Translations under genes and position numbers: made by a program | Assembly: GCA_947494995.1 (NCBI GenBank) | Contig: CANLWY010000005.1 | Location: forward strand, 1 to 64,000 | From: an uncultured Campylobacterales bacterium | GTDB lineage: Bacteria > Campylobacterota > Campylobacteria > Campylobacterales > Arcobacteraceae | Reading direction: 5' to 3' | DNA: 64,000 nucleotides | Part shown: one piece after another, positions 11,159 to 41,426 of the stretch | Layout of the letters: the number at the start of each line of letters is the position of its first letter | Position numbering within the stretch: the first letter of the stretch is position 1 | Notes under the pieces: model-generated | What the model was told of the DNA's origin: nothing | The model's input: the letters and a program-made list of their open reading frames with translations, nothing else | Database searches by the model: none

Positions 11159-11189
11159 ATTATACTAATTGATAGTGGCAAGATAGTGT
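11159..11189 (-). promoter_or_regulatory. Direct-repeat promoter A (EAL gene)
   Basis: On the coding strand ACACTAT-CTTG-CCACTAT (11189 to 11172), then 7 nt, then TATAAT (11164-11159). The ATG at 11128 follows 43 nt after the repeat. The 11-bp repeat period and fixed distance to the -10 match nine other promoters in the window. Confidence 0.85.
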
Positions 11190-11198
11190 TTTTGAAAA

Positions 11199-11220
11199 AA
11201 CTGCCTCAAAAGAGGCAGTT
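11199..11220 (-). terminator. Rho-independent terminator of the cytochrome c553 gene
   Basis: A perfect 9-bp stem, AACTGCCTC / GAGGCAGTT, with a 4-nt loop. It is flanked by A and T runs on either side, so it could work in both directions. It lies 32 nt downstream of the monohaem cytochrome stop codon. Confidence 0.85.
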
Positions 11221-11252
11221 TTTATAGGAGAAGTCTTAATGACAAGACTGAT

Positions 11253-11534
11253 TTAGAATTTCGATATTACTGTTGCTAAAGCATCAATTTGCTCAGCATT
11301 AAGAGACTTTACTTGAGGAATCATCATTCCTTTTTTTGCTCCACCTTGACCGTTTTTATATCCATTTAATTTAGATACAACTGTATCTTTACTTAAACCC
11401 TGGATTTTTGCAAAGTTTGTTTTTTCACCATTTACACCATGACAACCTGCACACTTTTTATATAAAGATGCTCCATCGGCTGCTAATAATGAAGTTGCAC
11501 ATGCAAATGCTAATGTTAAAACTACTTTTTTCAT
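11253..11534 (-). CDS. Monohaem cytochrome c553-type
   Basis: A 93-residue class I c-type cytochrome with signal peptide (MKKVVLTLAFACATSLLAA) and one haem motif, CAGCH, near residue 28. The distal Met ligand is probably in KKGMMIPQ. Small periplasmic carriers of this type shuttle electrons between respiratory complexes. The start was set at 11534 because AAGGAAAA precedes that ATG; an in-frame upstream ATG at 11579 lies between the -10 element and this site and would add a non-signal-like prefix. It is transcribed alone from direct-repeat promoter B and closed by a strong hairpin terminator. Confidence 0.9.
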   Translation of the reverse strand: MKKVVLTLAFACATSLLAADGASLYKKCAGCHGVNGEKTNFAKIQGLSKDTVVSKLNGYKNGQGGAKKGMMIPQVKSLNAEQIDALATVISKF

Positions 11535-11584
11535 AGATTGTTTTCCTTGGTTATATATTTGTTTATCTCTCATAAACATAAATA

Positions 11585-11615
11585 ATTATATATGTAGAGA
11601 GTGTGAAGATAGTGT
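11585..11615 (-). promoter_or_regulatory. Direct-repeat promoter B (cytochrome c553)
   Basis: Coding strand ACACTAT-CTTC-ACACTCT (11615 to 11598), 7 nt, TATAAT (11590-11585). The gene start at 11534 follows 63 nt after the repeat. Confidence 0.85.
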
Positions 11616-11623
11616 AATCTAAG

Positions 11624-11824
11624 TTAAAAACTCATATTTTTACAAATAATCTTTTTTGTATATTTATTCTCTAAAAAAGTTAAAGTTTCAAAATAGACTC
11701 CACTTTTTATATCACAATACTCTTTTGTTATGTATTTTGTTTGAAAAAAATTTGAAGAAGACAAACTAAAACTGTTTGCAAGAAGTAAACTTAAAAATAA
11801 TGAGATAAGAATTATAGCTTTCAT
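11624..11824 (-). CDS. Small secreted protein of unknown function, 66 aa
   Basis: A 66-residue protein with a clear signal peptide (MKAIILISLFLSLLLANS) and a short mature part of about 48 residues. The mature part contains two Cys (EYCDIKSG and KIICKN) spaced 22 residues apart, which could form a disulfide, plus several aromatic residues. I recognise no family. The ORF is supported as real by a strong ribosome site (AAAGGAG, spaced 7 nt) and by its own copy of the direct-repeat promoter at the standard distance. Its location between the c553 gene and the cytochrome synthase operon and its shared promoter suggest a role with the cytochromes. Confidence 0.7.
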   Translation of the reverse strand: MKAIILISLFLSLLLANSFSLSSSNFFQTKYITKEYCDIKSGVYFETLTFLENKYTKKIICKNMSF

Positions 11825-11849
11825 TATAAACTCCTTTGTTTATAATGAA

Positions 11850-11880
11850 ACTATACTCTTTTATAGTGTGAAGATAGTGA
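11850..11880 (-). promoter_or_regulatory. Direct-repeat promoter C (66-aa secreted protein)
   Basis: Coding strand TCACTAT-CTTC-ACACTAT (11880 to 11863), 7 nt, TATAGT (11855-11850). The ATG at 11824 is 38 nt from the repeat. Confidence 0.85.
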
Positions 11881-11883
11881 TAT

Positions 11884-12555: not shown

Positions 12556-12566
12556 TTTATTTCCTT

Positions 12567-13358
12567 TTATTTTATTAACCATTTATGAAACTCTTCACTT
12601 GCTACTTGATCAAGTAAAGCTTCATACTTATTATTTTTTTTCAAATCTTTAACTAATTCGTCAAGCTTCAAAATCAAACTTTTATCTATATTAGAATTAT
12701 TTGATAATAGAAAATGAAAAGGCACCTCTTTATAAACCTTAGGATGCATTTTTATATCATCACCCATTCCATTTTTTAATATCAAATTTAACGTAGTAAG
12801 CTTTGAATTAATAAAAAAATCTGTTCTTCCCTCATATAAAACTTTAACAGCAATATCTACATTCTTTGATTTATGAGAGTTTACTCCTGCTTCTTTATAT
12901 AACTTTTCTGTTGTTCCATCTCCTAAAACTGAACAAAAAAACAAGTCATCTTTTAACATTAGAGGATCTTCTGTTTTTAGTGCTAAATCCATTTTCTTAG
13001 AATTAACAGAAGTAAATCCTCTCCATTCAAGATTTATCAATCTTTCTTCTGTAATAGAATATACTTTTTTTCTATCTTTTGAAGGAAATGTAACTACTGC
13101 ATCATAAGTTCCTTCTTCAGCCAAAAGTTGAGCTCTTTTCCAAGGAAAACCACCATGTTCAACCTCTACGTGTAACATTTTATGAAAAAGAGTATCCATC
13201 AAACTAATTAAAATACCTTTCATTTGACCATCCTCATCTCGGTAAGAATAAGGGGGCCACTCTTCTGCGTAAGCTATCATTACTTTTTTATTATTTTCAA
13301 CATGATGTGCAAAAACAGATGAGATAGAAAATATTAAAACAAATATAATTTTTATCAT
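12567..13358 (-). CDS. Periplasmic solute-binding protein, amino-acid type (SBP_bac_3-like)
   Basis: A 263-residue secreted protein (signal MIKIIFVLIFSISSVFA). It has the family-3 solute-binding pattern: YAEEWPPYSYRDEDGQMKGILISLMDTL near the mature N-terminus and TYDAVVTFPSKDRKKVYSITEE for lobe 1. No permease or ATPase gene is adjacent, so it may act as a ligand sensor or carrier for another system rather than as part of an ABC importer. It lies between two monohaem cytochrome genes and the NrfJ-like gene in the CcsBA operon. The AT-rich hairpin at 13369-13390 may attenuate transcription into it. Confidence 0.7.
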   Translation of the reverse strand: MIKIIFVLIFSISSVFAHHVENNKKVMIAYAEEWPPYSYRDEDGQMKGILISLMDTLFHKMLHVEVEHGGFPWKRAQLLAEEGTYDAVVTFPSKDRKKVYSITEERLINLEWRGFTSVNSKKMDLALKTEDPLMLKDDLFFCSVLGDGTTEKLYKEAGVNSHKSKNVDIAVKVLYEGRTDFFINSKLTTLNLILKNGMGDDIKMHPKVYKEVPFHFLLSNNSNIDKSLILKLDELVKDLKKNNKYEALLDQVASEEFHKWLIK

Positions 13359-13383
13359 ACAAATTATTAACTAAAAATATTTT

Positions 13384-13944
13384 TTAGTTATTTCCTCCAC
13401 TAAGAATATATTTACTTAGCGCATTATAGTCACTTTCAGATAAAATTCTAAGTTTTGCAAGTTGTGTTCTCATAATACTTTCACGTTCAGGTTGGATTAT
13501 TGCTTTACCTTTTCTTTGTAAATATAGTACCAGTTCATTTTCCTTATTTTTATAACCTCTTGCAAGTTTTTTTAAAGATGGTCCTAATCTATTCTCTTTT
13601 CTTTTATGACATAGATTACAAGCTTTGTCAAAAAATATCTTACCTCCAACTGAAGTAGGTACTAGTTCTTTCTTTGCAGTTGTCTTTAACGCAGTTTTTG
13701 TTTTGGGGTCATAAACTCTAACTTTTGAGCTCTCTGAAGTATCTCTATATTTCAACTTTTTCTTTTTATAAACTCTATTTTTAAGTACCCTTTTTGGAGC
13801 TTTTTTAACATTTTTGTTCATATTAATTGAAGTAGTAGAAGTAAGCTCTTTTTTTGGAGGCTTTACTACTTGTTCATTGTTCTTTGAACATCCTGCTAAA
13901 ATTAAAATTAAACTACTTAATGAAATTAAAGCTATTTTCTTCAT
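13384..13944 (-). CDS. Monohaem c-type cytochrome lipoprotein
   Basis: A 186-residue protein with a lipoprotein signal (LILAGC), a long basic linker (about 25-95, rich in Lys/Thr) and a C-terminal cytochrome domain with one haem motif, CNLCH, followed by RLGPSLKKLARGY. The segment LVLYLQRKGKAIIQP is nearly repeated in the monohaem cytochrome at 32120-32473 (LVQYLRGKGKAIIQP), so the two are paralogues at either end of the cytochrome region. The long linker would let the haem domain reach from the membrane anchor. It is co-transcribed with CcsBA (14 nt to the next gene upstream). Confidence 0.85.
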   Translation of the reverse strand: MKKIALISLSSLILILAGCSKNNEQVVKPPKKELTSTTSINMNKNVKKAPKRVLKNRVYKKKKLKYRDTSESSKVRVYDPKTKTALKTTAKKELVPTSVGGKIFFDKACNLCHKRKENRLGPSLKKLARGYKNKENELVLYLQRKGKAIIQPERESIMRTQLAKLRILSESDYNALSKYILSGGNN

Positions 13945-13957
13945 TACTTTACCCTTT

Positions 13958-14269
13958 TTAATGATTTTTTTTGTAGATATAATCAGCTATTTGTTCACGC
14001 TCAGCTTTTGAATATTTTTTAATTATAATTTTCATTAAGCCAGCTTTTCCTCCATTAGGAGAGTTTATATATTTTTCAAAAGCATCAATCAACTCTTTTT
14101 TAGAGAAGCTTGATATTTTCTTTGTTACACTTAGTACTTGTTTATCAAAATTTTCGCCATGACACTTTTGACATTTTTTTATTTCATATTCAATATTAAA
14201 ATCTTTTGCAAAAATTTGACTTTGCATAATTATATTTATACAAAATATTAATAGTAATACTTTTTTCAT
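13958..14269 (-). CDS. Small monohaem c-type cytochrome
   Basis: A 103-residue secreted cytochrome (signal MKKVLLLIFCINIIMQSQIFA) with one haem motif, CQKCH, near residue 34. The C-terminal helix KAEREQIADYIYKK is typical of class I cytochromes; a Met ligand is likely in GLMKIIIKK. The start at 14269 overlaps the CcsBA stop codon (TGATG) and has AAGGAG upstream, indicating translational coupling to the synthase. Confidence 0.85.
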   Translation of the reverse strand: MKKVLLLIFCINIIMQSQIFAKDFNIEYEIKKCQKCHGENFDKQVLSVTKKISSFSKKELIDAFEKYINSPNGGKAGLMKIIIKKYSKAEREQIADYIYKKNH

Positions 14270-17463: not shown

Positions 17464-17493
17464 TGTTAATACCTTATTCTGTATACTATTGTA

Positions 17494-17524
17494 ATATTAT
17501 CTGAATAAAGTGGCAGGATAGTGT
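17494..17524 (-). promoter_or_regulatory. Direct-repeat promoter D (fused CcsBA operon)
   Basis: Coding strand ACACTAT-CCTG-CCACTTT (17524 to 17507), 7 nt, TAATAT (17499-17494). The ATG at 17463 is 43 nt from the repeat. The upstream half-site is embedded in a perfect inverted repeat (17516-17541). Confidence 0.85.
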
Positions 17525-17541
17525 AAAAGATTACACTATCC
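17516..17541. repeat. Perfect 11-bp inverted repeat overlapping promoter D
   Basis: GGATAGTGTAA, 4 nt, TTACACTATCC. It starts directly after the stop codon of the ResB-like gene and places a second ACACTAT half-site in the opposite orientation next to the promoter D repeat. No T-tract follows on the minus strand (it continues TGCCACTTT), so an operator role is at least as likely as termination. Confidence 0.7.
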
Positions 17542-21066: not shown

Positions 21067-23124
21067 TTAATATGGACTATTCTCATAAATTCCTGTACCA
21101 CTGTCAGCATCATGTTTATCATTACAGTTTCCTCCCCCATTTGCCTCAGGAGGACTCCAAGAACCCATCCAAGCGTCATCTCTGCCATATGAATTTCTTT
21201 CTCTATAACCTCTAATTTTTGCCATATTTCCATTATAGTTATATGGAGCAGGCCAGGTATTATAAACTTGTAATTTTGAAAGAGCTGAACCATGAGGTAC
21301 AGCAGTATGACATCTTACACAATATAAACCATCCATCTCATTTTTCCAATTGTGAGGATAGTTAGCATTACCAGCTTTTATATTATGACAATTTTTACAA
21401 AATAAACCATTCCAATCACTTCCCCCATAAGACTCTCCTGCTCTATAGTGATTTCCAGATGCATTAGTTGGCCAGTAGTTATTTACACCTTTTAACATAA
21501 ACTTATAGCTTGAACCATGAGGTCCAGTTGGATCTCCTCCAATTTCATTATCTGTTCCATGACAATCAGAACACATCATTGTCTGTGTTCCTACACTTTT
21601 CCATGGAGTTTTCATTTGTGTTGCATCTAAACCTTTTATTGAACCTGGACTTGCCATAGAGTTTGTATTTACCACAACTGGATGACCTGAAAAATTATTT
21701 TTATTAAATTCCCAAGCTTGGTCAGTAAAATTTCTTGTTGGATCACTTGTTGTTGCAAAAGATGAAGAACCATCTACAGCAACACCTAAGCCCCAATAAG
21801 AGTGACACTTCATACATATTTGATACTCTTTTGTAGCCTCTTTCATCGTTGTAAAATTCGTTGGTTGTGTCCATCTTGAAGGAGAATTTGGCTCAACTCC
21901 TGTAACTCCTGTTAATGGTCCAGAAGAAGATATTAGATTAGAAGGAGAACTTGGATACCAACTGTTTGTAGCATCAGAAGGAACTCTATGGGTACCTGGT
22001 TTTGATTGGTGTTGATTATGACAATCCATACACTCAACATGTTTTGAATCATCCCAACTAATTCCTTTTGAGCCACTAGGAAACCTTGAAACACCTGTTC
22101 CATACAAAGTATCTAAATTACTATGTACTCCATCTTGATTTAATAAAGTACTTCCATGCCCATATGTTCTAGATAAAACATTCTCAATATTTTTAACTCC
22201 ACCTGAACTATGGCATGGTGCTGTTGCAACTGAATCAGAAGCTCCTTTAAAACATGTGTTTTGCTCTACCTGACGAAGTAAATAACCACTACTTTCCCCA
22301 TTATGTGGAGTATGACAATTAATACACCCTAAATCACCAACAACATTAGTACCAAACTTACTACTTACATTTGGATCAGTATAAGTATCTGTTTGAGTAT
22401 CATGAGCACTTCCCGCCCAACCATCTTTAATATGACAAGAGGTACATGTTTGTTTCATGTTCTCTCCATGACTTCCAACATCAACTCTTAAAAATTTTTC
22501 ATTTTGAGTATGTGGATCATGACAAGAAGCACACTCAACATATTTTTTGCCACCCATTGTATATAGCTTGACAGGACTGTCAGGATTTGTTTTTAGTTCA
22601 ATTCCTTTTGTTCCTGAATCAAAAGAGATTGTAATATTAGGGTCATACTCAAATCCAACTGGATGATGAATACTTAAATCGGTACCAATATATCCTGTTG
22701 CTGTATTTTTCATAGTTCCATCAGGATTTGTATCATTTACACTTAAAGCACTTCCTAATACTGTTCCTCTTACAGCATATATCCCCCCAACCGCAATTGT
22801 CCCATCATGACAACTAAGACACTGTCTTGATAACTGACCAGGAGAATCATTTGCTGTACCTAAATCACTAGGCACTGGATAGTTTGAACGTTCTAAATAT
22901 GTACTTGAATACATAGTATATGATGATGAAGGCATATCTCTATTCCACAAAGGTTTTCCAGGTTGAGCACCATGAGGAATATGACAAAAAGCACAAACTT
23001 CTTGTTCTGATGAACCTTTAATTGTACCAGGTCCAGAAGTTGAAATATTGTGCTTAGTATTCAAAATACTTGCAAATGAAAAATTTATTATAATAAAAAA
23101 CAAAAATATTAATTTTCTTAACAT
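21067..23124 (-). CDS. Multihaem cytochrome c with 10 CXXCH plus one CX12CH motif
   Basis: A 685-residue secreted protein (signal MLRKLIFLFFIIINFSFA). Ten canonical motifs: CAFCH (44), CLSCH (102), CASCH (198), CTSCH (227), CINCH (267), then CMDCH, CMKCH, CSDCH, CKNCH and CVRCH. A Cys at 291 and CH at 304-305 form a CX12CH motif that falls where a haem would be expected. Residues 20-230 repeat the tetrahaem pattern of the proteins at 28166-28927 and 29050-29697 (TKHNIS, CHIPHG, PLWNR, CLSCHDG, CASCHDPH, FLRV), so the protein is a tetrahaem module extended by seven haems. Probably exported to or beyond the outer membrane. It follows an NHL protein gene (9-nt gap) with a strong AGGAG site. Confidence 0.9.
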   Translation of the reverse strand: MLRKLIFLFFIIINFSFASILNTKHNISTSGPGTIKGSSEQEVCAFCHIPHGAQPGKPLWNRDMPSSSYTMYSSTYLERSNYPVPSDLGTANDSPGQLSRQCLSCHDGTIAVGGIYAVRGTVLGSALSVNDTNPDGTMKNTATGYIGTDLSIHHPVGFEYDPNITISFDSGTKGIELKTNPDSPVKLYTMGGKKYVECASCHDPHTQNEKFLRVDVGSHGENMKQTCTSCHIKDGWAGSAHDTQTDTYTDPNVSSKFGTNVVGDLGCINCHTPHNGESSGYLLRQVEQNTCFKGASDSVATAPCHSSGGVKNIENVLSRTYGHGSTLLNQDGVHSNLDTLYGTGVSRFPSGSKGISWDDSKHVECMDCHNQHQSKPGTHRVPSDATNSWYPSSPSNLISSSGPLTGVTGVEPNSPSRWTQPTNFTTMKEATKEYQICMKCHSYWGLGVAVDGSSSFATTSDPTRNFTDQAWEFNKNNFSGHPVVVNTNSMASPGSIKGLDATQMKTPWKSVGTQTMMCSDCHGTDNEIGGDPTGPHGSSYKFMLKGVNNYWPTNASGNHYRAGESYGGSDWNGLFCKNCHNIKAGNANYPHNWKNEMDGLYCVRCHTAVPHGSALSKLQVYNTWPAPYNYNGNMAKIRGYRERNSYGRDDAWMGSWSPPEANGGGNCNDKHDADSGTGIYENSPY

Positions 23125-24144: not shown

Positions 24145-25941
24145 CTAAAACTTTCTTTTTATTCCCAATAGAATTGACTCTGACATAAAGTTCTCTTCTT
24201 CTTTTTTAATCTGTCTAATAATTTTTGTAGTTAAATCAACTTCAAAATTTCTATACTTGTAATATAGTCCCGCATTAAGTTGATGATTTGTACTTTTATT
24301 ACTTTCATCTACCATAATATCGTAAATTGTTTTAAAGGAGAGTGTTCTCCACAACCTATAATTAAATGAAAAAGATAAGCTTGGATCAAGACTTTTAATA
24401 GTATTTCTATCTTCTTTTTCAAATTTATAATTTAGTCCTGTAGTAATAGAAAGTCTACCTCTTACATCAATATTCTTTGAATATTTAAAAAGGTTTTTTA
24501 TACGTACTACTTTTTTTTCTTTTTCATTTTTATCCTCTTCTGATATATCTGCTTCAATATTGTATTCAATGTTAGATGCTGGAAAAGTATTTAAATATGT
24601 ACTTAGTTTTATAACTTGAGAATCTTTATTACCTTCTTCAAAACTCTTTACATAATTTAGCTCATAACCATTTCTTGCATTCCAAAAATCAAACTTTTTA
24701 TTTATTCCAAGAGTTGTATCAAAAGTTATTGTTTTGTCATCTTCTATTTCATTAGTTGCATCTAAGCTTGTATTGTCATTTGTTATATATGATATAGTAT
24801 TGTTTAAATAAAATTTTGTTTTAGGAGATATATCTTTTCTATAGTTTGTAGTTGTTGATAAAAAAAGACTTTCATGGGTACTTGCAGGAGTAAGAACGTT
24901 AAGAAAATTTAAATTCTGAGAGTTTGACCAGTTTTTATTGATCTTATAGTTTGATGAAATATTTACTCCATAATTCTCATAACTTTCATCTTCTACTTTA
25001 TACTCATTTGCATCAATTGATACCAAAGCATTATATGATTTTGAAGGTTTCCAAGTTAATCTTAAATCTCCACTATTATTTTTAGATTCATTCTTTCCAT
25101 TTTTTTCAGTATCAAAACTACTATTTACAGATAATTCATCTGAAAATCTATATCTTAATGATGAATAAATACTATCAATTGTATATGTCTCATCATTGTT
25201 TACAGAATTATTACTTTCATCTTTTTTTGTATAATTTAAGTTCACATGAAAATCTTTAGTAGAATAACTTGTTGAAATATTTTTTTTACTTCTATCTTCT
25301 TCTAAAAAATCTCCATATAGTGTTTTTGTATCAGAATTACTTTGTCCTAACATTAAACTTAATCTTGATTCATCTTTAAACTCTTTAGAAAAACTAATTC
25401 CAAAAGAGTTAGAATCTAAGTCTTTATTTCCTAATTGTGAGCTAGTTTCTGATTGGTCTAAGTTTGCATTATAATCAATATTTAAATAAGGGGTTTCAAC
25501 TCTACCTCTAAGAGAATAGTCAGTTTTATTAAATGTTGTTTCAACAATACTATCTTCATTTATAATAGTTGAAGGCTTTTCAGTATGTCTTGCTTTTATA
25601 TGAAAAGGCATAAAACTTTTTTGTAAAAAGTTTAAACCAATATCATACTCTGTATTTTCATAATTACTAGATTTATCTTGATTATTATCTTTTCCATCTT
25701 CATCAGTTTTAGAAAATTTTAAAAGAAAATAATAGTCTAACATTCTTTGATCATATAAAAAATTTCTATATCGTAAATTTAATACTTGACTTAATTTATC
25801 AGTTTGAGTCTCTTTTTCATTTTTAGTTTCTTGTTTTGAGTATTCTACTCCAATATCTCCACTTAGGTTTTCAAGAATATTTGAAAACCCAAGAGTGGAA
25901 GTTGATAAAAAGAGAAGGAGGCTAAAACAAGACTTTTTCAT
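24145..25941 (-). CDS. Outer-membrane beta-barrel protein (porin-like)
   Basis: A 598-residue protein with signal peptide (MKKSCFSLLLFLSTSTLGFS) and no Cys in the mature part, so no haem. The mature chain is a long series of amphipathic strands with alternating polar and aromatic residues separated by Asp/Asn/Lys/Glu-rich loops, and it ends in Phe (IKRKF), the usual outer-membrane insertion signal. The length fits a barrel of more than 20 strands. It lies between an isomerase and NHL/cytochrome genes, as expected of the barrel of a porin-cytochrome conduit, but sequence similarity to MtrB or OmbB cannot be judged here. No ribosome site is evident. Confidence 0.8.
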   Translation of the reverse strand: MKKSCFSLLLFLSTSTLGFSNILENLSGDIGVEYSKQETKNEKETQTDKLSQVLNLRYRNFLYDQRMLDYYFLLKFSKTDEDGKDNNQDKSSNYENTEYDIGLNFLQKSFMPFHIKARHTEKPSTIINEDSIVETTFNKTDYSLRGRVETPYLNIDYNANLDQSETSSQLGNKDLDSNSFGISFSKEFKDESRLSLMLGQSNSDTKTLYGDFLEEDRSKKNISTSYSTKDFHVNLNYTKKDESNNSVNNDETYTIDSIYSSLRYRFSDELSVNSSFDTEKNGKNESKNNSGDLRLTWKPSKSYNALVSIDANEYKVEDESYENYGVNISSNYKINKNWSNSQNLNFLNVLTPASTHESLFLSTTTNYRKDISPKTKFYLNNTISYITNDNTSLDATNEIEDDKTITFDTTLGINKKFDFWNARNGYELNYVKSFEEGNKDSQVIKLSTYLNTFPASNIEYNIEADISEEDKNEKEKKVVRIKNLFKYSKNIDVRGRLSITTGLNYKFEKEDRNTIKSLDPSLSFSFNYRLWRTLSFKTIYDIMVDESNKSTNHQLNAGLYYKYRNFEVDLTTKIIRQIKKEEENFMSESILLGIKRKF

Positions 25942-28037: not shown

Positions 28038-28068
28038 ATTGTATAGCTACAAAGTGTAAACATAGTGG
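28038..28068 (-). promoter_or_regulatory. Direct-repeat promoter E (NHL-PpiC-barrel-cytochrome operon)
   Basis: Coding strand CCACTAT-GTTT-ACACTTT (28068 to 28051), 7 nt, TACAAT (28043-28038). The ATG at 27996 is 54 nt from the repeat. The 18-bp repeat is identical to that of promoter G. Confidence 0.85.
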
Positions 28069-28165: not shown

Positions 28166-28927
28166 TTATTTAGCATGGCATCCTAGACAAAGTACACTTC
28201 CTTGGTTATTTGAAACTCTTAGGAATGTATCGTTTTCTCCAAGGTGTGGATCATGACAAGATGAACATTCAACTTTTCCACCTCTAAGAACAGAAGAGAT
28301 ATTCTGTGTACCATTTGGAGTTGTCCAAGTTGCACTATATCCAGTAGTTCCTGCACCAAATGCACCTGCTTGTGGATTTAATGATGCGTTACCATCTGTA
28401 TATGTAATAGATACAGGGTGGTCATTTGATAAATCAACATCTGCAGCATCAGGTCCAGCACCGATATTTGTAATTCTACCTGATGGCATTACAAATGCAG
28501 TTCCATCACCAGCTGTAGTTGTACCATCTGTCATACCTAGATATTCAGTAGTATCACCACTTCCTGGAGCATTTACAACTGAGTTGATTGCACTTACACC
28601 ATCATGACAACTTAAACATGCTTTTGATGAGTTACTAACAGTTGTATCTGCTGTAACACCTGCAATTGTTGTTCCATATGTTGCATAAGTAGTTCCACCT
28701 GGAGTATCTTCTTTATTCCATAATGGTGCACCAGCAAAATTTGAGTTCGATCCGTGAGGCGTGTGACAAAATACACAGATTTCACTATTTGCTGTAGCAG
28801 TATTTGCTTTAATAATATTTCCTGAGAAAGTTAAATCGTGTTTACTTCCTGCAATTTCACCAAACGCTTGTGTTAAGCCTAGTATACCAACTAGTACTAA
28901 CGCCGCTTTTAAAAACTTAGTTTTCAT
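28166..28927 (-). CDS. Tetrahaem cytochrome c
   Basis: A 253-residue secreted protein with signal peptide (FLKAALVLVGILGLTQAFG) and four CXXCH motifs: CVFCH, CLSCH, CSSCH and CLGCH, the last four residues from the end. Pattern: SKHDL, CHTPHGSNSNF, LWN, CLSCHDG, DHPVSI, CSSCHDPH, FLRV. This is the doubled-CXXCH type. Monocistronic, with its own direct-repeat promoter F and a very strong terminator, consistent with high-level expression of a structural protein. Tetrahaem proteins such as OmcE form extracellular filaments; that function here is only a hypothesis. Start at 28927 chosen for AAGGAG upstream; the ATG at 28969 lies inside the promoter. Paralogue of 29050-29697. Confidence 0.9.
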   Translation of the reverse strand: MKTKFLKAALVLVGILGLTQAFGEIAGSKHDLTFSGNIIKANTATANSEICVFCHTPHGSNSNFAGAPLWNKEDTPGGTTYATYGTTIAGVTADTTVSNSSKACLSCHDGVSAINSVVNAPGSGDTTEYLGMTDGTTTAGDGTAFVMPSGRITNIGAGPDAADVDLSNDHPVSITYTDGNASLNPQAGAFGAGTTGYSATWTTPNGTQNISSVLRGGKVECSSCHDPHLGENDTFLRVSNNQGSVLCLGCHAK

Positions 28928-28954
28928 AATTTTCTCCTTACCGTTTATAAGATT

Positions 28955-28985
28955 ATTGTACATATACATGGTGTGAAGATGGTGT
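28955..28985 (-). promoter_or_regulatory. Direct-repeat promoter F (tetrahaem cytochrome)
   Basis: Coding strand ACACCAT-CTTC-ACACCAT (28985 to 28968), 7 nt, TACAAT (28960-28955). Both halves carry the same T to C change, keeping the repeat perfect. A further CCACTTT lies upstream (28995-28989). The start at 28927 is 40 nt from the repeat. Confidence 0.85.
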
Positions 28986-29049: not shown

Positions 29050-29697
29050 TCACTTTGCATGACATCCGAAACAAAGAAGGCTTCTTTCATTACTCTTTAC
29101 TCTTAAAAAAGTAGCATTTTCACCTAAATGTGGATCATGACAACTTGAACACTCAATTCTATCAGCTCTTAAAACAGAAAGAATAGTTTGTGAACCGTCT
29201 GGAGTATGCCAAACTGCACTATACCCCTTTGTCTTTGCACCAAAAGAACCTGACTTTGGATTTAAACTTGCTTTTTGTTCATCATAAGGTATTGAAATAG
29301 GATGTCCATTATCAAAAAATCCATCATTATGTATTCTATCATCTGAACTTGAAGAAGATATATTTGAAGAAGATTCAAAAATAGAGTTAACAGCACTAAC
29401 ACCATCATGACAACTTAAACATGCTTTTGATGAATTAGTATCAATATCTCCTTCTGTATCAATTTTATCATATACTAAATATGTAGTCTCATTTATAGAT
29501 AAGTTATTATCCCATAAAGCATTCCCTGAAAAATTTGAGTTTGAACCATGGGGAGTATGACAATAGACACATAATATCCCATCATCCTCTTTTACCTCAA
29601 AATTCAAATATGAAAGATCATGCTTACTGCCATTTATTACTGCAAACATATTAATATATAAAAGAGGGAAAAGAATAAGAAATCTATTAATATTCAT
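29050..29697 (-). CDS. Tetrahaem cytochrome c, paralogue
   Basis: A 215-residue secreted protein with signal peptide (FLILFPLLYINMFA) and four motifs: CVYCH, CLSCH, CSSCH and CFGCH. It aligns throughout with the tetrahaem protein at 28166-28927 (GSKHDLSY, CHTPHGSNSNFSG, KACLSCHDGVSAVNS, ASLNPKSGSFGAKTKGYSAVW, IECSSCHDPHLGENATFLRV) but is shorter in the loop before the third haem. It is the third gene of the operon from promoter G (8-nt gap after the octahaem gene), so the two paralogues are expressed from different promoters of the same regulon. Confidence 0.9.
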   Translation of the reverse strand: MNINRFLILFPLLYINMFAVINGSKHDLSYLNFEVKEDDGILCVYCHTPHGSNSNFSGNALWDNNLSINETTYLVYDKIDTEGDIDTNSSKACLSCHDGVSAVNSIFESSSNISSSSSDDRIHNDGFFDNGHPISIPYDEQKASLNPKSGSFGAKTKGYSAVWHTPDGSQTILSVLRADRIECSSCHDPHLGENATFLRVKSNERSLLCFGCHAK

Positions 29698-30805: not shown

Positions 30806-30833
30806 AAGATTAACCTTATTTAAGGTTAATCTT
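30806..30833 (-). terminator. Hairpin at the end of the 11+1-haem cytochrome gene
   Basis: A 13-bp perfect stem (AAGATTAACCTTA / TAAGGTTAATCTT) with a 2-nt loop that includes the stop codon. Only a short T run follows, so partial read-through into the octahaem gene is likely; it may set expression ratios in the operon. Confidence 0.6.
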
Positions 30834-32015
30834 TGGTGTTACTCTATCATAGTGTCGTCTTGCATGACAAGCTGGGGCACAAGAACCACCATCTTCTGTA
30901 GCAATAAACCGTAGAGGGAAATTAATTTTTCCAAATTTTGTTTTATCCCTTAAATGTTTAGGATTCTTTTCTGTTGCATGGAAATCATGACAAGCTCTAC
31001 AAGTCCTTCCTTTTTCATCTTTTGCAACATGAACCCAGTGTATATTTTTATCACCATTTCTAAAACCTGTAGCGGTGGTGGTAGTTGGTTCAGTAATCCT
31101 ATCAGATTCATGACATTTAAAACACAATAAATTGTCTTTATCAAACTTAGCATAAAAAGTTCTAGGGAATGGTTCTTTTAACATTCTGTGATTGTCCGAA
31201 CCATGTGGATTATGACAAGCTGCACAATCATTCCATAATATAGGACCATGATGATCTTTATTTGCGTTTAAATGTTTTGCTAAATCATCTAATTCATATC
31301 CATCTTCATCTGTTTTAAGTTTTTCATTATGACAAGATAAACACATATTTTTTACATTATCACTTTTTATCATTCTTTCAGTATTTGTACCATGTGGGTC
31401 ATGACACTCTTGACATTTATTAGGTCTATTTAAAGCACCATGTTTATCACTAACTTGAGCAATATGCTCTTTTTTGTCAACATGGCATAAAAGACATAAA
31501 TCCATTTTTGGCTCAGCTTTTAATTGATACTTATGATCTTCTGTATGTGGATCATGACAGTTTACACAAGAGTCTGCAACAGGAGGATGAATATTACTAT
31601 TTTCTGTAAACATTGTATGTTTTGCTTCATGACAAGAAGTACAAAGTGCATTTATACTTGGTTCAACTAGAAGTGTAGAGTTTTCAGATTCATGTGGATT
31701 ATGACAAGCCGTACAAGCCCCAGCAACAACTGGACCATGAATAAATTTTTTTCCTTCTTTTTGAGTTTTATCATGACATTGATAACATAAACCAGGCGTA
31801 TCCATCACTAACTCATCAGTTTGTCCCTTTGGATCAACATGACACAAAGTACAATCGCCCCATTCATAAGGCGGGTGAACCACTTTTTTATCAGCCTTTA
31901 AATTTGGCTCAAATTCAATTTTCTTTGCAACAGAGCTTCCTGCTTGTACAACTGTAGCAAAAAAGAAGATTGTTGATAAAAAAATAAGTGTTTTGAAAAT
32001 ATAATTTCTTTTCAT
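30816..32015 (-). CDS. Multihaem cytochrome c with 11 CXXCH plus one CX3CH motif
   Basis: A 399-residue secreted protein (signal MKRNYIFKTLIFLSTIFFFATVVQA). Eleven canonical motifs (CTLCH, CYQCH, CTACH, CTSCH, CVNCH, CLLCH, CQECH, CLSCH, CAACH, CFKCH, CRACH) at a dense spacing of 20-45 residues, many as CHNPH or CHDPH doubled-CXXCH units, then CAPACH (CX3CH) at 379-384. The compact repeating form resembles the decahaem periplasmic wire MtrA-type proteins, so a periplasmic or through-barrel electron conduit is plausible. It opens the operon from promoter G. A hairpin at its end may reduce transcription into the octahaem gene. Confidence 0.9.
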   Translation of the reverse strand: MKRNYIFKTLIFLSTIFFFATVVQAGSSVAKKIEFEPNLKADKKVVHPPYEWGDCTLCHVDPKGQTDELVMDTPGLCYQCHDKTQKEGKKFIHGPVVAGACTACHNPHESENSTLLVEPSINALCTSCHEAKHTMFTENSNIHPPVADSCVNCHDPHTEDHKYQLKAEPKMDLCLLCHVDKKEHIAQVSDKHGALNRPNKCQECHDPHGTNTERMIKSDNVKNMCLSCHNEKLKTDEDGYELDDLAKHLNANKDHHGPILWNDCAACHNPHGSDNHRMLKEPFPRTFYAKFDKDNLLCFKCHESDRITEPTTTTATGFRNGDKNIHWVHVAKDEKGRTCRACHDFHATEKNPKHLRDKTKFGKINFPLRFIATEDGGSCAPACHARRHYDRVTPKINLK

Positions 32016-32055: not shown

Positions 32056-32105
32056 ATTATACTCCCACAAAGTGTAAACATAGTGGCAGAAAGTGGCAAA
32101 AGTGT
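32056..32105 (-). promoter_or_regulatory. Direct-repeat promoter G with four half-sites (multihaem operon)
   Basis: Core on the coding strand: CCACTAT-GTTT-ACACTTT (32086 to 32069), 7 nt, TATAAT (32061-32056). Two more half-sites lie upstream: CCACTTT (32096-32090) and ACACTTT (32105-32099). The ATG at 32015 is 53 nt from the core. Confidence 0.85.
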
Positions 32106-32473: not shown

Positions 32474-32581
32474 TTTAATCCTTTTTTTTGAAATCTCCTA
32501 TTATGCTACAGCTTGAAAAATAAATTAGAACTTAAATTAATTTACTAATATTTTTAAGAAATTATTAAGTTAGTCTTAGGC

Positions 32582-32587: not shown

Positions 32588-32611
32588 TTAAAAAAGAGCA
32601 AGGAGTATAAA

Positions 32612-33997: not shown

Positions 33998-34017
33998 TAT
34001 TAAATAAAAGAATAAAA

Positions 34018-34704
34018 ATGGACAAATTAAAAAATTTAAAAATACTATATGTTGAAGACGATGAATTAATAAGAGAAAATACATCTGAAATATTGGGCAG
34101 AAAATGTGATAATGTTGTAACTGCAAAAAATGGTCTAGAAGGACTAGATTTATATAAAGAGATTGAACCAGATATTATTATTACAGATATACAAATGCCC
34201 AAAATGGATGGCCTTACAATGATTAAAAAGATCCGTGAAAATGATATTGATACGAAAATTATAATTACTACTGCTTATAGTGATCAAAAATATTTACTTG
34301 AAGCAGTTGAATTACAACTTATTAAGTATGTGTCAAAACCATTAACATGGAATAAAATTTCTGATGCATTGAAGGTATCACTAAAATTTATTAAAGAGAA
34401 TGATAGTGTTACTAAATATATTGATGATGATTTTACATATAACTCATTTACTAAAACCTTATATAAAAATGATAAAGAAGTAATATTGTCAAATCATGAA
34501 AAACAACTCTTAGAACTATTAGTCAAAAATAGGAACAATTTAGTGCAGTATGAGGCTATTGAAAATTTTATTTGGGCTGATATTGGTATGAGTAAAGATG
34601 CTATTAAATCTTTAACAAAAGGTTTAAGAAAAAAGCTTCCAGATGGAGCTTTACAAAATATATACGGACTTGGTTACAAGTTGAATGTGAGAGAAGATGT
34701 ATAG
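34018..34704 (+). CDS. OmpR/PhoB-family response regulator
   Basis: A 228-residue two-domain regulator. The receiver (1-120) has acidic pair EDD (LYVEDDELI), phospho-acceptor Asp in IITDIQMPKMDG, and Thr/Lys switch residues (ITTAYS, VSKPL). The C-terminal winged helix (about 135-228) has the Trans_reg_C pattern: VILSNHEKQLLELLVKN, AIKSLTKGLRKKL, IYGLGYKLN. Proteins of this family bind direct repeats with 10-11 bp period. It is the only such DNA-binding regulator in the window and lies centrally among the ten direct-repeat promoters, so it is the best candidate to bind them (inference). It overlaps the kinase gene by 8 nt. Confidence 0.9.
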   Translation: MDKLKNLKILYVEDDELIRENTSEILGRKCDNVVTAKNGLEGLDLYKEIEPDIIITDIQMPKMDGLTMIKKIRENDIDTKIIITTAYSDQKYLLEAVELQLIKYVSKPLTWNKISDALKVSLKFIKENDSVTKYIDDDFTYNSFTKTLYKNDKEVILSNHEKQLLELLVKNRNNLVQYEAIENFIWADIGMSKDAIKSLTKGLRKKLPDGALQNIYGLGYKLNVREDV

Positions 34705-35824
34705 AGAAAAAATATTAATAGTTGATGATGTTGCACAAAACATTGCTATACTAGATAACTTATTAAATTTTAAATATGAAATTTTGGCGTCAACAGATGG
34801 AAATGTAGCATTTGAAATTGCAAAAAATGAACTGCCAGACTTAATCTTGCTAGATATTATAATGCCTGAACTTGATGGATTAACACTTTGTTCAATGTTA
34901 AAAGAAAATGAATCAACTAAAAATATTCCAGTAATATTTATCACAGCTAAAAATGATGATGAAAGTATTATTTCAGGATTTAAAAAAGGTGCTGTTGATT
35001 ATGTAACAAAACCATTTAAAACAGATGAATTATTAGTTAGAGTAGGAAATCATCTACGTTTAGTTGGATACCAAAAACATTTGGAGAAGAAAGTTGAAAT
35101 GGAAATCAATCTAAGACATGAACAAGAAGAGTTATTAATTCAAAACTCTAAAATGGCTGAAATGGGTGACATGATTAACAATATCGCTCATCAATGGAGA
35201 CAACCAACATCAAGAGTAACTCTTCTTTTGTCAAATATATTAATGAGTTTAGAAGAAGATGAAATAGACAAAAAGTATTTAAAAAATAAAATAGATAGTG
35301 CCATTGAACAAATGGAATTTATCTCATCTACTATTGATGATTTTACAAACTTTTTTTCACCTAAAAAACAGACTAAAAACTTTTATGTATCAAATGCAAT
35401 TGAAAAAACATTAAAAATAGTTAAATCTACTTTTACAAGTTTTGGTATAGATATAAATATAAACAATGATGATTTTATCCTAAAAGGAAATGAAAATGAA
35501 TTATCACAAGTAATTTTAATAATCTTATCAAATGCAAAAGATCAATTTGAAAAAAATGAATCAGAAAATAAAACTATAGATATAATAATTAACTCTGAAG
35601 AAAAAAGTCTTGAGTTTATTGATAATGCAGGTGGAATAAGAGAAGAAATTATTGATAAAATCTTTGATCACTACTTTTCTACTAAAAATAAAGACCATTG
35701 TACCGGAATAGGTTTATATACTGCAAAAATGATAATTCAACAAACTTTCAACGGTAAAATTGAAGCAAAAAACACTACTAATGGGGCTTCTTTTACCCTA
35801 AAATTCAATACAACGCAAAATTAA
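34697..35824 (+). CDS. Soluble REC-histidine kinase
   Basis: A 375-residue cytoplasmic protein with no membrane segment. Receiver (1-120): VDDVAQNIAI, phospho-acceptor in LILLDIIMPELDG, KPF. A coiled coil follows (about 122-150), then an H-box with NNIAHQWRQP (phosphorylated His) and a HATPase domain with N-box SNAKDQF, FIDNAGGI and CTGIGLYTAK. Translationally coupled to the response regulator (8-nt overlap). Because input seems to come through its own receiver, it may be a relay node fed by another kinase, for example the hybrid kinase at 6535-9477, rather than a direct sensor; that link is inferred. Confidence 0.9.
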   Translation: MYREKILIVDDVAQNIAILDNLLNFKYEILASTDGNVAFEIAKNELPDLILLDIIMPELDGLTLCSMLKENESTKNIPVIFITAKNDDESIISGFKKGAVDYVTKPFKTDELLVRVGNHLRLVGYQKHLEKKVEMEINLRHEQEELLIQNSKMAEMGDMINNIAHQWRQPTSRVTLLLSNILMSLEEDEIDKKYLKNKIDSAIEQMEFISSTIDDFTNFFSPKKQTKNFYVSNAIEKTLKIVKSTFTSFGIDININNDDFILKGNENELSQVILIILSNAKDQFEKNESENKTIDIIINSEEKSLEFIDNAGGIREEIIDKIFDHYFSTKNKDHCTGIGLYTAKMIIQQTFNGKIEAKNTTNGASFTLKFNTTQN

Positions 35825-35835
35825 TTGCGTTGTAT
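35808..35835 (+). terminator. Terminator of the regulator-kinase operon
   Basis: An 11-bp stem (ATACAACGCAA / TTGCGTTGTAT) with a 6-nt loop spans the stop codon, then CTTAAAAT. It ends just before direct-repeat promoter H. Confidence 0.7.
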
Positions 35836-35854
35836 CTTAAAATAAATTAAGTTT

Positions 35855-35885
35855 ACACTATCTTCACACTATTTTCTTATAAAAT
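35855..35885 (+). promoter_or_regulatory. Direct-repeat promoter H (rhodanese gene)
   Basis: ACACTAT-CTTC-ACACTAT (35855-35872), the perfect form of the repeat, then 7 nt, then TAAAAT (35880-35885). The ATG at 35920 is 47 nt from the repeat. Confidence 0.85.
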
Positions 35886-35919
35886 TCAATTAATATAATT
35901 TTTAAAGGAGATATTAAAA

Positions 35920-36381
35920 ATGAAAAAGACACTTTTTCTACTTTTTACACTATTAGCTGGAGTTGCCTTAGCAGAAAGGGCCCCTACACCATCAAAAACT
36001 GAGGCATTAACACAAGGTGTTAAAGAGGTAACTGTTCAAGAAGCAAAAAAAATGTATGACAATGGAGCTATCTTTTTAGATGCTAGAAAACCTCTTGATA
36101 TTGCAAGAGGAAAAGTTAAAGGTGCACTAAAAGCATCATATAAAGATAAAGGTGGAAATAAAAACAAAATAATGAACTGGGATAAATCGAAAGATTCATA
36201 TAGCAGTAAAAACTTTCCAAAAGATAAAGCTACGACTATTGTTACATACTGTAATGGTCCAAAATGTTGGAAGTCTTATAAACTTGCAGTTGTTCTTGTA
36301 AATGATTTACAATATACAAATGTAAACTGGCTAAGAGATGGATTCCCTGCATGGAAAGATGCTGGAAATCCTAGTGAATAA
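35920..36381 (+). CDS. Periplasmic rhodanese-like protein
   Basis: A 153-residue protein with signal peptide (MKKTLFLLFTLLAGVALA) and a single rhodanese domain: VQEAKKMYDNGAIFLDARKPLDIARG, then the active-site loop TYCNGPKCWKS with the predicted catalytic Cys and a second Cys four residues on, then GFPAWKDAGNP. Rhodaneses transfer sulfane sulfur or act as redox or docking domains. It has the perfect version of the direct-repeat promoter and a good AAAGGAG site, so it belongs to the same regulon as the cytochromes. Whether it handles sulfur compounds or Cys redox state for cytochrome maturation cannot be told. Confidence 0.85.
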   Translation: MKKTLFLLFTLLAGVALAERAPTPSKTEALTQGVKEVTVQEAKKMYDNGAIFLDARKPLDIARGKVKGALKASYKDKGGNKNKIMNWDKSKDSYSSKNFPKDKATTIVTYCNGPKCWKSYKLAVVLVNDLQYTNVNWLRDGFPAWKDAGNPSE

Positions 36382-36383
36382 AT

Positions 36384-36414
36384 AAAATGTAAAGAGAGTT
36401 TCTCTTTACATTTT
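36384..36414 (+). terminator. Terminator of the rhodanese gene
   Basis: A perfect 14-bp stem (AAAATGTAAAGAGA / TCTCTTTACATTTT) with a 3-nt loop, 3 nt after the stop codon and ending in TTTT. Confidence 0.9.
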
Positions 36415-36438
36415 AAAAGCATATATAAAGGTGCAATC

Positions 36439-38289: not shown

Positions 38290-38308
38290 GTCAAAAATCA
38301 AACAAAAA

Positions 38309-38337
38309 ATCTCTCTTGTAATAACTACAAGAGAGAT
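38309..38337 (+). terminator. Hairpin after chemoreceptor 1
   Basis: A perfect 12-bp stem (ATCTCTCTTGTA / TACAAGAGAGAT) with a 5-nt loop, 19 nt past the stop codon; A run before, weak T run after. Confidence 0.65.
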
Positions 38338-38380
38338 GACACTTTTCAACTAAAATTAACCTCTTTTTAAATTTCTCTTG

Positions 38381-38411
38381 CCACCTTCCTTACACTTTTT
38401 ATATATATAAT
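38381..38411 (+). promoter_or_regulatory. Direct-repeat promoter I (chemoreceptor 2)
   Basis: CCACCTT-CCTT-ACACTTT (38381-38398), 7 nt, TATAAT (38406-38411). The ATG at 38434 is 35 nt from the repeat. The upstream half is the weakest match of the ten. Confidence 0.75.
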
Positions 38412-38433
38412 CAATAATTAAAAAGGAACTATT

Positions 38434-40314
38434 ATGAATGCAACAGAAATAAAAAGAAAACTTTACGGAGTATCAATTAAAACAAAACTTTTTGGAGGAT
38501 TTACACTACTTCTAATTCTCGCACTATTAATGGGTGGCTATATTATTCGTACACTTAATATTTTTGAAAATATTAGCTATAAAAAAGAAGAAAGAAATTA
38601 TCAATTAGAGCTAGTTAACAGAGTTAAACTTGTAAATACAACTATTACACTAATAGCAATGGATAGTATTATTGATAAAAGTGAAAAAAGAATTCATCCA
38701 GATAGAGAAAAAGAGTTAAATCAACTATATTCTGAATTAAAAGAATTAAAACAAGAAATTGCTAATATTGCAGATACGGATGAAGAACAAGCATTAATTA
38801 CTGATATATTTGCAGCCTTAAAAGCAATTGAACCTTTGATACAAAATGATTTAAAAAGATTAATAGAAACTGAAGCTCCTGAGTCGTCATTTGCAAAGCT
38901 CGATGATGATATAGATGGAGCTTCTGGAAATCTAGATGATGACATAGATAAACTACTAATATCTATTAAAAATGAATTAAAAGAAGCTAAACTTACAGAA
39001 CAAGAATACTCATCAGATATGTATAGAAGTATAATAACTATATTGATTCTAACAATAGCCTTTAGTATATTCTTTGCTACTTTTATTTCAAAAAATATTT
39101 TTGATTCAATTAAAAACCTAAAAAGTGGTTTAGCAGAATTTTTTAAATATCTAAACAATGAAACAAAAAATGTTCATAAACTAACTGCTACATCTGAAGA
39201 TGAAATTGGAGATATGATTGAAAGTGTTAATAAAAATGTAAAAATTGTAAAAGATGAACTAGAATCAGATAAAAAAGTTATTGAGGAAGTTTCAACTATT
39301 GTACAAAAGGTTTCAGAAGGAAATTTGGGAGGAAGAATCTCTACAAAAACAAAAAATCCAGCTGTTACAACACTTACTAATGAACTAAATACTATGATGG
39401 ATGTATTACAAAACAATACTCAGCATATTATTACTATATTAAAAGATTATGAAGAAAAAGATTTTACAAAAAGAGTTACTCTTGATTCAACAGCAGATAT
39501 AAAAGAATTAGTTGATGGTATCAATAGCTTAGGTAATGCAGTATCGCATATGTTATCTAACAATTTAAATAATGGGCTTGATTTACAAAATAATGCAGAC
39601 AAACTAAATGAAAATGTTACTTATTTAAGTAAAAGTTCAAATGAACAAGCTGTATCTTTGGAAGAAACAGCAGCATCTTTAGAAGAGATTACTTCATCAA
39701 TTAAAAATGATACAGTAAACTTTGAAAAGATGATTGAGTTTTCAAATACACTTTCTCAATCAATTGAAAATGGACAAGATATGGCATCACAAACTGTTGA
39801 TGCTATGAGTGATATAAATGAACAGACAAATGCCATTTCAGAAGCTATTATTGTAATTGATCAAATAGCATTTCAAACAAATATTTTATCTTTAAATGCA
39901 GCAGTTGAAGCTGCAACTGCTGGTGAAGCAGGAAAAGGATTTGCAGTAGTTGCACAAGAAGTTAGAAATCTTGCAAGTAGATCAGCTGAAGCTGCAAAAG
40001 AGATAAAAACCCTTGTTGAAAATGCAACAGATAAAACTCATTCAGGAAAACAGATTGCAGATAATATGATTGAAGGATATCAAGTATTAAAAAACAATAC
40101 AGAAAAAACAACTGAAATAATATCCCTTATCTCAGCAAATGCAAAAGAACAACAAAAAGGTATTGAACAAATTAATGATGCGATTACATCTCTTGATCAA
40201 TCAACACAACAAAATGCTGCTTCTGCTACAGAAACAAAAGAGATAGCACAAATTACATATCAAATGTCTGAAAATATGGTAGAAGAAGCTAATAAATCAA
40301 AATTTCTACAATGA
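38434..40314 (+). CDS. Methyl-accepting chemotaxis protein 2
   Basis: A 626-residue chemoreceptor: TM1 (about 18-38; [20 protein letters not shown]), a periplasmic helical sensor (about 40-190), TM2 (about 192-212; [20 protein letters not shown]), HAMP-type segments and a signalling domain nearly identical to that of MCP1. The sensor differs from MCP1, so a different stimulus is expected. Unlike MCP1 it has its own direct-repeat promoter, placing it with the cytochrome genes and suggesting it guides the cell in relation to the same electron acceptor or redox state (inference). Its 3' end overlaps the convergent protease gene by 9 bases. Confidence 0.9.
39571..40314 (+). repeat. Chemoreceptor signalling-domain repeat, copy 2
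   Basis: Second copy of the sequence at 37546-38289, gap-free. Differences are mainly third-position changes; a few residues differ (for example KALVEN to KTLVEN). Confidence 0.8.
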
Positions 40315-41373
40315 ATCAAATATCAATAAAAAAGTTTCCCTTGCAATAGAGGAAGGGGAACTTATAGAATCTCCTGAATATTTAACCTGAATTAATTCAT
40401 CTCCATCTTGATTAAAAAGCTTAATAGAAAGATAACTAATAGAATCAAACTCCCAATAATATTTATACTCATATATAATCTTATATTTAGCTATTTTTTC
40501 TACATTCATCTTTTTTACCATTTGAGAAGAAGGAGTATTATTTATTAAAACTGTTGCTTCTAAGGCATCATCAAGAGTTCTTATTTGAGATTTTTTTTTG
40601 ACAATAAAATTGTGTTCATTTAAAAATGAAACTATTTTAGTAGACTTCACTCCAAAGTTTATATTCTGAGGAATAATATCTAAGTATTTAAAAAGATATT
40701 TATCTGATAACCTAGAAGTTGCAATCCCTAAAACATCAAAACTATTATTAATAATTGGCCCTCCACTATTCCCAGGCTGAATTGCTGCACTTATTTGAAA
40801 CTGTTTTAAATCTCCTTTAATACCATTTTTAGAGGAGACTATTCCTTTTGTGATTCTAATATCAGTACCTAAAACTTGAGACAAAGGGTATCCAATAACA
40901 CTAATTTCTTCTCCTATCTTAGGCTCTTGTTTATTTAAATCAAACCAATAAGATGTTGTATATTTATTTGTAGGAGACAATATAGCTATGTCAGATCTTT
41001 TATCTTCATATAATACCTCTGCTACAAAATTGTTATTTGAATTAGTCTTAATATTTAAAAAAGTGAATCCATCAACTACATGCTGATTTGTAGCAATTAA
41101 ACCATCTTTACTAATAAAAAAACCACTTCCTTGAGAAGATTTAACAAGTTTTTCTTCTTTCATTTTTATTTTTGGGTGTGCGAGGGTATGTTTATAACCT
41201 TTTTTTTCTAATTCATACGTAAATATATCAATTAGATTTACAGGGTCATTTATTGGGTTTATGATTAAAAAAGTATCATTGTTTTCAAGTTTATAATTAG
41301 CTTTTTTTAAAATCTCTTTGTTTGCACATGAAGCAAAAAAAATCAAAGTAATAAATAAATAAAAATATTTCAT
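40306..41373 (-). CDS. HtrA-like trypsin-family serine protease, lipoprotein
   Basis: A 355-residue lipoprotein (lipobox FFASC near residue 17). Residues about 80-250 form a trypsin-type protease domain with all triad parts: His in TNQHVVDG, Asp in SDIAILSP and Ser in QPGNSGGP. The C-terminal ~100 residues ([14 protein letters not shown] onward) do not look like a PDZ domain, so it differs from DegP and DegS. Probably a periplasmic quality-control or processing protease. It has direct-repeat promoter J, so it is expected to be expressed with the cytochrome apparatus. Confidence 0.85.
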
Positions 41374-41395
41374 ATTCTATCCTTAATAATAAAAT

Positions 41396-41426
41396 ATATT
41401 ACCAAGCAATAGTGTTAAAACAGTGG
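41396..41426 (-). promoter_or_regulatory. Direct-repeat promoter J (HtrA-like protease)
   Basis: Coding strand CCACTGT-TTTA-ACACTAT (41426 to 41409), 7 nt, TAATAT (41401-41396). The ATG at 41373 is 35 nt from the repeat. The orientation fits the minus-strand protease, not the divergent gene at 41493. Confidence 0.8.

Follow-up and report, generated by a model that had tools for sequence, protein, structure and literature searches.

Ten tandem-repeat promoters in a putative cytochrome-nanowire island of an uncultured Campylobacterales bacterium suggest a local OmpR-type regulon

In regulons of the PhoB/PhoP type, direct repeats that recur every 11 bp precede the −10 element. The repeat of the Campylobacter jejuni regulator DccR is said to be WTTCAC-N6-TTCACW. 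Here an arrangement of this kind is described in a window of 64,000 nucleotides (contig CANLWY010000005.1 of assembly GCA_947494995.1, positions 1 to 64,000) from an uncultured Campylobacterales bacterium of the Arcobacteraceae, where ten promoters of an island of about 30 kb with putative genes for extracellular electron transfer share a tandem half-site before the −10 hexamer.

The design itself is already known in Campylobacterota. PceP of Sulfurospirillum bound all predicted promoters of its region in electrophoretic mobility shift assays, and strains with an interrupted PceP gene are reported (PMC7755780). The pceAB promoter carries CTATA repeated with 6-nt gaps over the −35 position, and the consensus is given as CTATW-N17-CTATW (PMC7755780). 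HP1043, also named HsrA, of Helicobacter pylori binds TTTAAG-N5-TTTAAG in place of the −35 element (PMC5253667). HP1043 resembles the system of the window in that it is of the OmpR/PhoB type and has repeats lying 11 bp apart from centre to centre, just 5′ of a housekeeping −10; it differs in being an orphan and essential regulator with genome-wide targets and another half-site. The use of such a switch on a nanowire island looks new, and a literature search over the titles of open-licence papers found no title on the regulation of cytochrome-nanowire genes in Campylobacterota.

In the window, a local OmpR-type regulator probably binds the repeats in place of the −35 element and co-activates the island as one regulon. 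The ten 31-bp sites were found at the coordinates given by an earlier, sequence-only reading, each precedes a gene, and a direct check of the sequence returned the same −10 hexamers (TATAAT, TATAGT, TAATAT, TACAAT and TAAAAT). In the following lines the last value is the distance from the −10 to the likely start codon.

Site A: 11159..11189, − strand, before the GGDEF-EAL gene 9527-11128; 30 nt.
Site B: 11585..11615, − strand, before the cytochrome c gene 11253-11579; 50 nt.
Site C: 11850..11880, − strand, before a small 66-aa open reading frame (ORF) ending upstream of site B; 25 nt.
Site D: 17494..17524, − strand, before the fused ResB-CcsA haem lyase gene 14269-17463 and the genes after it; 30 nt.
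Site E: 28038..28068, − strand, before the gene run NHL/PPIC/598-aa/NHL/685-aa cytochrome/ResB/CcsA (27996 down to 17542); 41 nt.
Site F: 28955..28985, − strand, before an OmcE-like cytochrome gene; the start of the longest ORF is overlapped, the likely start lies 27 nt past the −10.
Site G: 32056..32086, − strand, before the MtrA-like 11-CXXCH cytochrome gene and the genes 30785-29050; 40 nt.
Site H: 35855..35885, + strand, before the rhodanese gene 35920-36381, perhaps also the chemoreceptor gene 36439-38289; 34 nt.
Site I: 38381..38411, + strand, before the chemoreceptor gene 38434-40314; 22 nt.
Site J (weakest): 41396..41426, − strand, before the trypsin-like protease gene 40306-41373; 22 nt.

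The direct-repeat design of the PhoB/OmpR type which had been proposed from these sites is well founded: the half-sites are 11 bp apart and the second one ends 7 nt before the −10 in 10/10 cases, the spacing 7-N4-7-N7-(−10) is exact throughout, and an OmpR-type regulator is present. Two details had to be corrected. The strict half-site (A/C)CACT(A/T)T occurs in both copies in just five of the ten sites (A, D, E, G and H); NCACYNT in both copies covers them all. The distances to the likely start codons are 22-50 nt and not 35-63 nt. When CACYNT-N5-CACYNT-N7-TANNNT was searched with at most one mismatch, the window gave ten matches, all of them exact, compared with a mean of 0.37 (standard deviation 0.66, largest value 3) in 100 shuffles, and MCACYWT-N4-MCACYWT was found seven times, against none in the control. 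A matrix built from the ten sites scores them at 25.6-37 bits and the next best site of the window at 13.8; in leave-one-out scoring the values range from 12.1 to 31.6 bits.

A −35 consensus is not visible by eye upstream of any of the ten sites, and therefore the promoters look weak without help. Sites G (−19, −10), F (−10), E (−20) and J (−12) have extra half-sites 5′ of their first repeat. The half-sites of some sites contain CTAT at an 11-bp step, and a third copy in register is absent. A 10-bp inverted repeat, AGGATAGTGT-N8-ACACTATCCT (17494-17545), has site D as one of its arms. It lies just behind the upstream ResB gene and may be a terminator, an extra half-site or both.

The sequence-only reading had taken the ten sites for one co-regulated set and had proposed a scan of the whole genome, whose outcome is consistent with such a set. 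Across the 3,167,823 bases (31 contigs) there are 11 matches to the exact pattern and ten of these lie in the window, so that the motif is confined to the island save for one match; the reversed-pattern control gave none. With one mismatch allowed there are 47 matches compared with 14 in the reversed control. The single exact match beyond the island (C2:277168, in locus L001 and at L197:15668) reads GCACTTT-agaa-GCACTTT and lies 10 nt before an 800-aa ORF.

Three genes of the window are relevant for the proposed control:

OmpR-type response regulator, the proposed activator: 34018..34704, + strand, Response_reg and Trans_reg_C domains, 41% identical to PceP.
Kinase with an N-terminal receiver, the proposed partner: 34697..35824, + strand, Response_reg and HATPase_c domains.
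Hybrid kinase CHASE5-PAS-HisKA-HATPase-receiver-Hpt, a possible relay partner according to a domain search: 6535..9477, − strand.

Both domains of the regulator score above the cut-off (Response_reg 92.8 bits, Trans_reg_C 36.5 bits), and a Pfam scan of 59 ORFs of the window showed no second OmpR-type gene. One TetR gene is located outside the island (46818-47390). The hybrid kinase gene may belong to the same operon as the GGDEF-EAL gene 9527-11128, from which it is separated by a gap of 49 nt. The regulator would be phosphorylated, probably through the receiver-kinase 34697-35824 and perhaps by way of a relay that includes the hybrid kinase, and the phosphorylated form would bind head to tail to the two NCACYNT half-sites 11 bp apart. 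As these half-sites occupy the −35 place 7 nt before the −10, the bound protein would recruit RNA polymerase instead of a −35 contact, and the ten sites would be promoters of a single local regulon that use the housekeeping sigma factor and depend on an activator. The porin-cytochrome and OmcE-like nanowire system, the haem-attachment machinery, chemoreceptors, a cyclic di-GMP (c-di-GMP) protein, the rhodanese and the protease would thus be switched on jointly, and the regulator operon, which has no site of this kind, would probably stay at basal expression.

The earlier nomination of this regulator can be upheld, and it appears to be the best candidate: the corresponding gene cluster of 18 other genomes stands without such a regulator next to it and lacks the motif, and both a sister paralogue and PceP stand beside similar promoters. 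A tree of 31 regulators places it together with the sister paralogue encoded at C5:120271 (support 98/95), and a larger group (92/85) holds the window regulator, the sister and PceP, although PceP is not sister to the window regulator. The regulators found within the clusters of other families fall outside that group. The sister regulator is accompanied by three promoters of the form ACACCAA-aaag-AAACTWT (ACACCAAAAAGAAACTWT sites) with the same geometry, which precede small ORFs at L182:10431, 10966 and 13153 on contig C5 of the same genome. A 7TM-type kinase adjoins it and a HlyD-like gene is situated nearby. By its sequence features this locus is a predicted second local regulon of the same design.

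Relatives of the window regulator reach at most 50% identity in the 103 other genomes of the family, among the matches listed, and at most 51% in the 397 other genomes of the order. One regulator beside an MtrA-like gene (genome G477, L165:98), 49% identical, was considered as an orthologue and rejected, its DNA-binding part being of another kind; it was excluded from the tree for this difference. The receiver similarity of 49% combined with another DNA-binding part amounts to a domain swap at the same place.

PceP was located via reductive dehalogenases, which scored above the cut-off in 5 of 378 genomes of the order; four stretches from three of them were examined. Its gene is identified, from sequence features, by its place beside a second dehalogenase gene and by a triple CTATA upstream. 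The identity to the window regulator is 41% over 219 aa. The pceAB promoter can be written as CTATAAC-aaag-CTATAAC-ttttgta-TATCAT and the 1497 promoter as CTATAAA-cgtc-CTATACT-tttttgc-CATAAT, which means that both show, like the sites of the window, the 7-4-7-7 arrangement before the −10 in a common frame. Furthermore, the PceP regulon and the window share an OmpR-type regulator of the same subfamily and several local promoters in a respiratory region with an 11-bp period over −35. PceP differs in the half-site (CTATW instead of NCACYNT), in the three repeats at pceAB and in serving dehalogenation rather than cytochrome wires. In addition, the PceP operon has its own site, whereas by eye the regulator operon of the window (34018-34704 plus kinase) has no tandem site. 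In one genome (G300, L210, about 12760-14370) the PceP gene is present in two separated pieces, and it is whole in L212 and L213.

We read the island as a putative system for extracellular electron transfer that combines porin-cytochrome and OmcE-like nanowire components. Its main structural genes are:

OmcE-like tetrahaem cytochrome: 28166..28969, − strand, 4 CXXCH, 7tfs E 4.5e-24, 9yuq E 2.6e-22.
OmcE-like tetrahaem cytochrome: 29050..29697, − strand, 4 CXXCH, 9yuq E 2.7e-15, 7tfs E 7.1e-14.
MtrA-like 11-CXXCH cytochrome: 30816..32015, − strand, 6r2q E 1e-12 (PDB entry listed under another molecule name).
685-aa 10-CXXCH cytochrome with OmcE-like N-terminus: 21067..23124, − strand, 7tfs E 1e-27.
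598-aa protein, proposed outer-membrane barrel, judged from its place only: 24145..25941, − strand.

Three proteins match PDB entry 7tfs ('Cytochrome c'), which we take to be the OmcE filament of Geobacter, and matches to 9yuq ('Putative multiheme cytochrome c') were obtained as well; 6r2q is presumably an MtrA complex. The 598-aa protein has no Pfam, NCBIfam or PDB match, its fold model reaches a pLDDT of only 28.9, and among 396 other genomes of the class four have relatives at E <= 1e-8. The island also contains an 8-CXXCH cytochrome, two NHL proteins, a PPIC isomerase, small cytochromes, two chemoreceptors, a rhodanese, a trypsin-like protease, a GGDEF-EAL protein and the hybrid kinase with Hpt. 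Like OmcE-type filament and porin-cytochrome clusters of Geobacter and others, the island, known from its genes alone, brings multihaem, NHL and PPIC genes together; it differs in belonging to Campylobacterales and in carrying haem lyases and a two-component system of its own. The fused ResB-CcsA haem lyase adjoins a split ResB/CcsA pair (14269-20606), and the fused form recurs in the clusters of four other genomes which could be read through that end.

At E <= 1e-60 the MtrA-like protein is matched in 17 of 397 other genomes of the order, and it has no match in the 103 other genomes of the family; a related-locus search with it gave two loci. The cluster set comprises these 17 genomes and one more (G443), that is 18 genomes with 25 loci and 377,313 bases, several of which stop at contig ends. 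As far as the contigs reach, the gene order is kept in the 18 genomes (MtrA-like, octahaem, OmcE-like, NHL, PPIC, 598-aa, NHL, 685-aa, 161-aa, fused haem lyase). From distribution and gene order, the core of the cluster is common to the order but patchy in this family, and its transfer between lineages seems likely. Even when no −10 was required, the tandem half-site pattern turned up just once in the 18 other clusters, some 13 kb away from the closest gene recognised as part of a cluster. No full-length protein encoded in these stretches is related to the window regulator at more than 30% identity; relatives of 47-49% exist elsewhere in some of the genomes (G339, G481, G499). To judge from this distribution, the motif goes with the regulator and not with the genes.

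How far the design extends among the paralogues was surveyed in 20 stretches of the same genome (329,918 bases), which contain regulator relatives. CAC[CT] tandems peak there at period 11 and gap 7 with six matches (other cells 0-3), the relaxed pattern has 14 matches compared with 3 reversed, and a motif-agnostic scan gave 26 for period 11 versus 2-9 for others, with gap 7 not distinct (15-30 for gaps 4-10). Of the 37 matches outside the window, eight lie within 5 kb of the 20 paralogues (expected 2.4, P 0.003) and four within 2.5 kb (expected 1.2, P 0.03). Matrix matches of at least 11 bits number 29 against 14 reversed at the regulator loci of this genome and 17 against 16 in the other clusters. 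A period-11 repeat at a fixed distance can always be framed as 7-4-7-7, so that only the place of the core in the frame is informative and the frame shared by different regulators is by itself weak evidence.

Several observations weigh against a local regulon under this regulator. With the looser [CA]AC[CT] grid the peak is not unique, since 12 matches at period 11 and gap 7 are equalled by 12 in another cell. When 16 loci around the closest relatives in other genomes were scanned without a preset motif, there was no excess (period 11: 20, period 12: 21; gaps 4-10: 12-24), with single CAC tandems at two of them (L222, L228), and among 59 regulator loci of about 3.6 kb each the strict tandem was found twice, one case being the window, compared with one reversed match. 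Site J is weak when it is left out of its own matrix (12.1 bits). Moreover, the choice of this regulator follows only from where it lies and from its relatedness, in a genome with 19 further full-length paralogues (E <= 1e-28). Their number is what would favour another paralogue, for example the sister about 86 kb off on the same contig, as the driver of the sites, alone or by cross-talk, and the sister sites ACACCAA/AAACTWT do resemble those of the island. However, they also differ from them and adjoin the sister itself, and all exact matches but one fall within the island, together with the gene of the local regulator, which makes this explanation unlikely.

The repeats could also be read by a repressor or by a DNA-binding protein other than a response regulator, given that the sequence alone was seen and that a site over −35 might equally block polymerase. 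The weak appearance of the promoters speaks against this, domain searches found no further regulator gene in the island, and PceP and HP1043, which have the same layout, are argued to be activators (PMC7755780; PMC5253667); we regard this reading as quite improbable. For Arcobacter butzleri seven pairs of extracytoplasmic function (ECF) sigma and anti-sigma factors are reported (PMC2147049), which would allow the repeats to be the −35 part of promoters for such an alternative sigma factor. Nevertheless, the −10 hexamers are housekeeping-like and a direct repeat of one helical turn is not a known sigma signature, so that hardly any weight can be given to this proposal. Activation by the local OmpR-type regulator is the reading preferred here, and under it the ten sites form a testable regulon in which genes for nanowires, haem lyases, chemotaxis and c-di-GMP would answer to a single switch.

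The clusters of other families carry marks of their own. In f8, f9 and f11 a regulator and a kinase are inserted before the OmcE-like genes; eight of these OmpR-type regulators were read, with 65-90% mutual identity in the pairs listed and 27-30% to that of the window. A motif-agnostic scan of the 18 other clusters gave four upstream matches without a common repeat, one of which later proved to be a TTACAC site. TTACA-N6-TTACA with a 7-nt gap to the −10 is present at 11 sites in seven genomes of f8, f9 and f11 (reversed control 0), ten of them before an OmcE-like gene, the contig ending behind the eleventh (L166). With a stricter −10 there are 10 sites at gap 7 and 0-2 at other gaps, and without a −10 there are 19 at period 11 and 1-3 at other periods, counts which lean towards the pattern because it was chosen after the upstream regions had been read. 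An inverted repeat, GTTAC-N5-GTAAC, has six copies in the 25 loci. Four of the copies precede an OmcE-like gene (three f7 clusters and one of f6), and the repeat is perhaps the mark of a third regulator for the same genes.

Loci with TTACA sites, beside a different OmpR-type regulator: L129, L166, L167, L169, L171, L173, L176.
Loci with GTTAC-N5-GTAAC before the OmcE-like gene: L125:15197, L127:14224, L178:16792, L179:2278.

From the TTACAC and GTTAC-N5-GTAAC findings, the nanowire genes therefore appear to be set under different regulators in different lineages. It is conceivable, though we hold it only tentatively, that respiratory islands of Campylobacterales share a promoter chassis, consisting of 11-bp-spaced half-sites at a fixed place before the −10, which is read by a large paralogous response-regulator family and a second OmpR-type lineage with an own half-site each, so that an imported island could join any local regulator. 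If so, the nanowire island would have been wired at least three times: by NCACYNT with a PceP-like regulator here, by TTACAC with another OmpR-type regulator in f8, f9 and f11, and by GTTAC-N5-GTAAC in f7 and f6. The same island with other tags and regulators in other families would represent a natural experiment on the rewiring of respiratory islands, and the many paralogous regulators in one cell allow asking how each keeps its own half-site.

Summed over the other genomes of the family, 103 in all, the matches to the exact pattern number 95, compared with 33 for the reversed pattern. At gap 9 the same genomes gave 46 matches, of which 16 are the same sites with a second TANNNT, and the remaining 30 compare with 27 reversed. 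Seven of the 95 matches lie within 5 kb of 145 regulator relatives among the matches listed (expected 0.5), a figure which counts orthologous loci repeatedly (G067/G068, G088/G089) and assumes a mean genome size. CACTTT tandems like that at C2:277168 recur in other genomes of the family.

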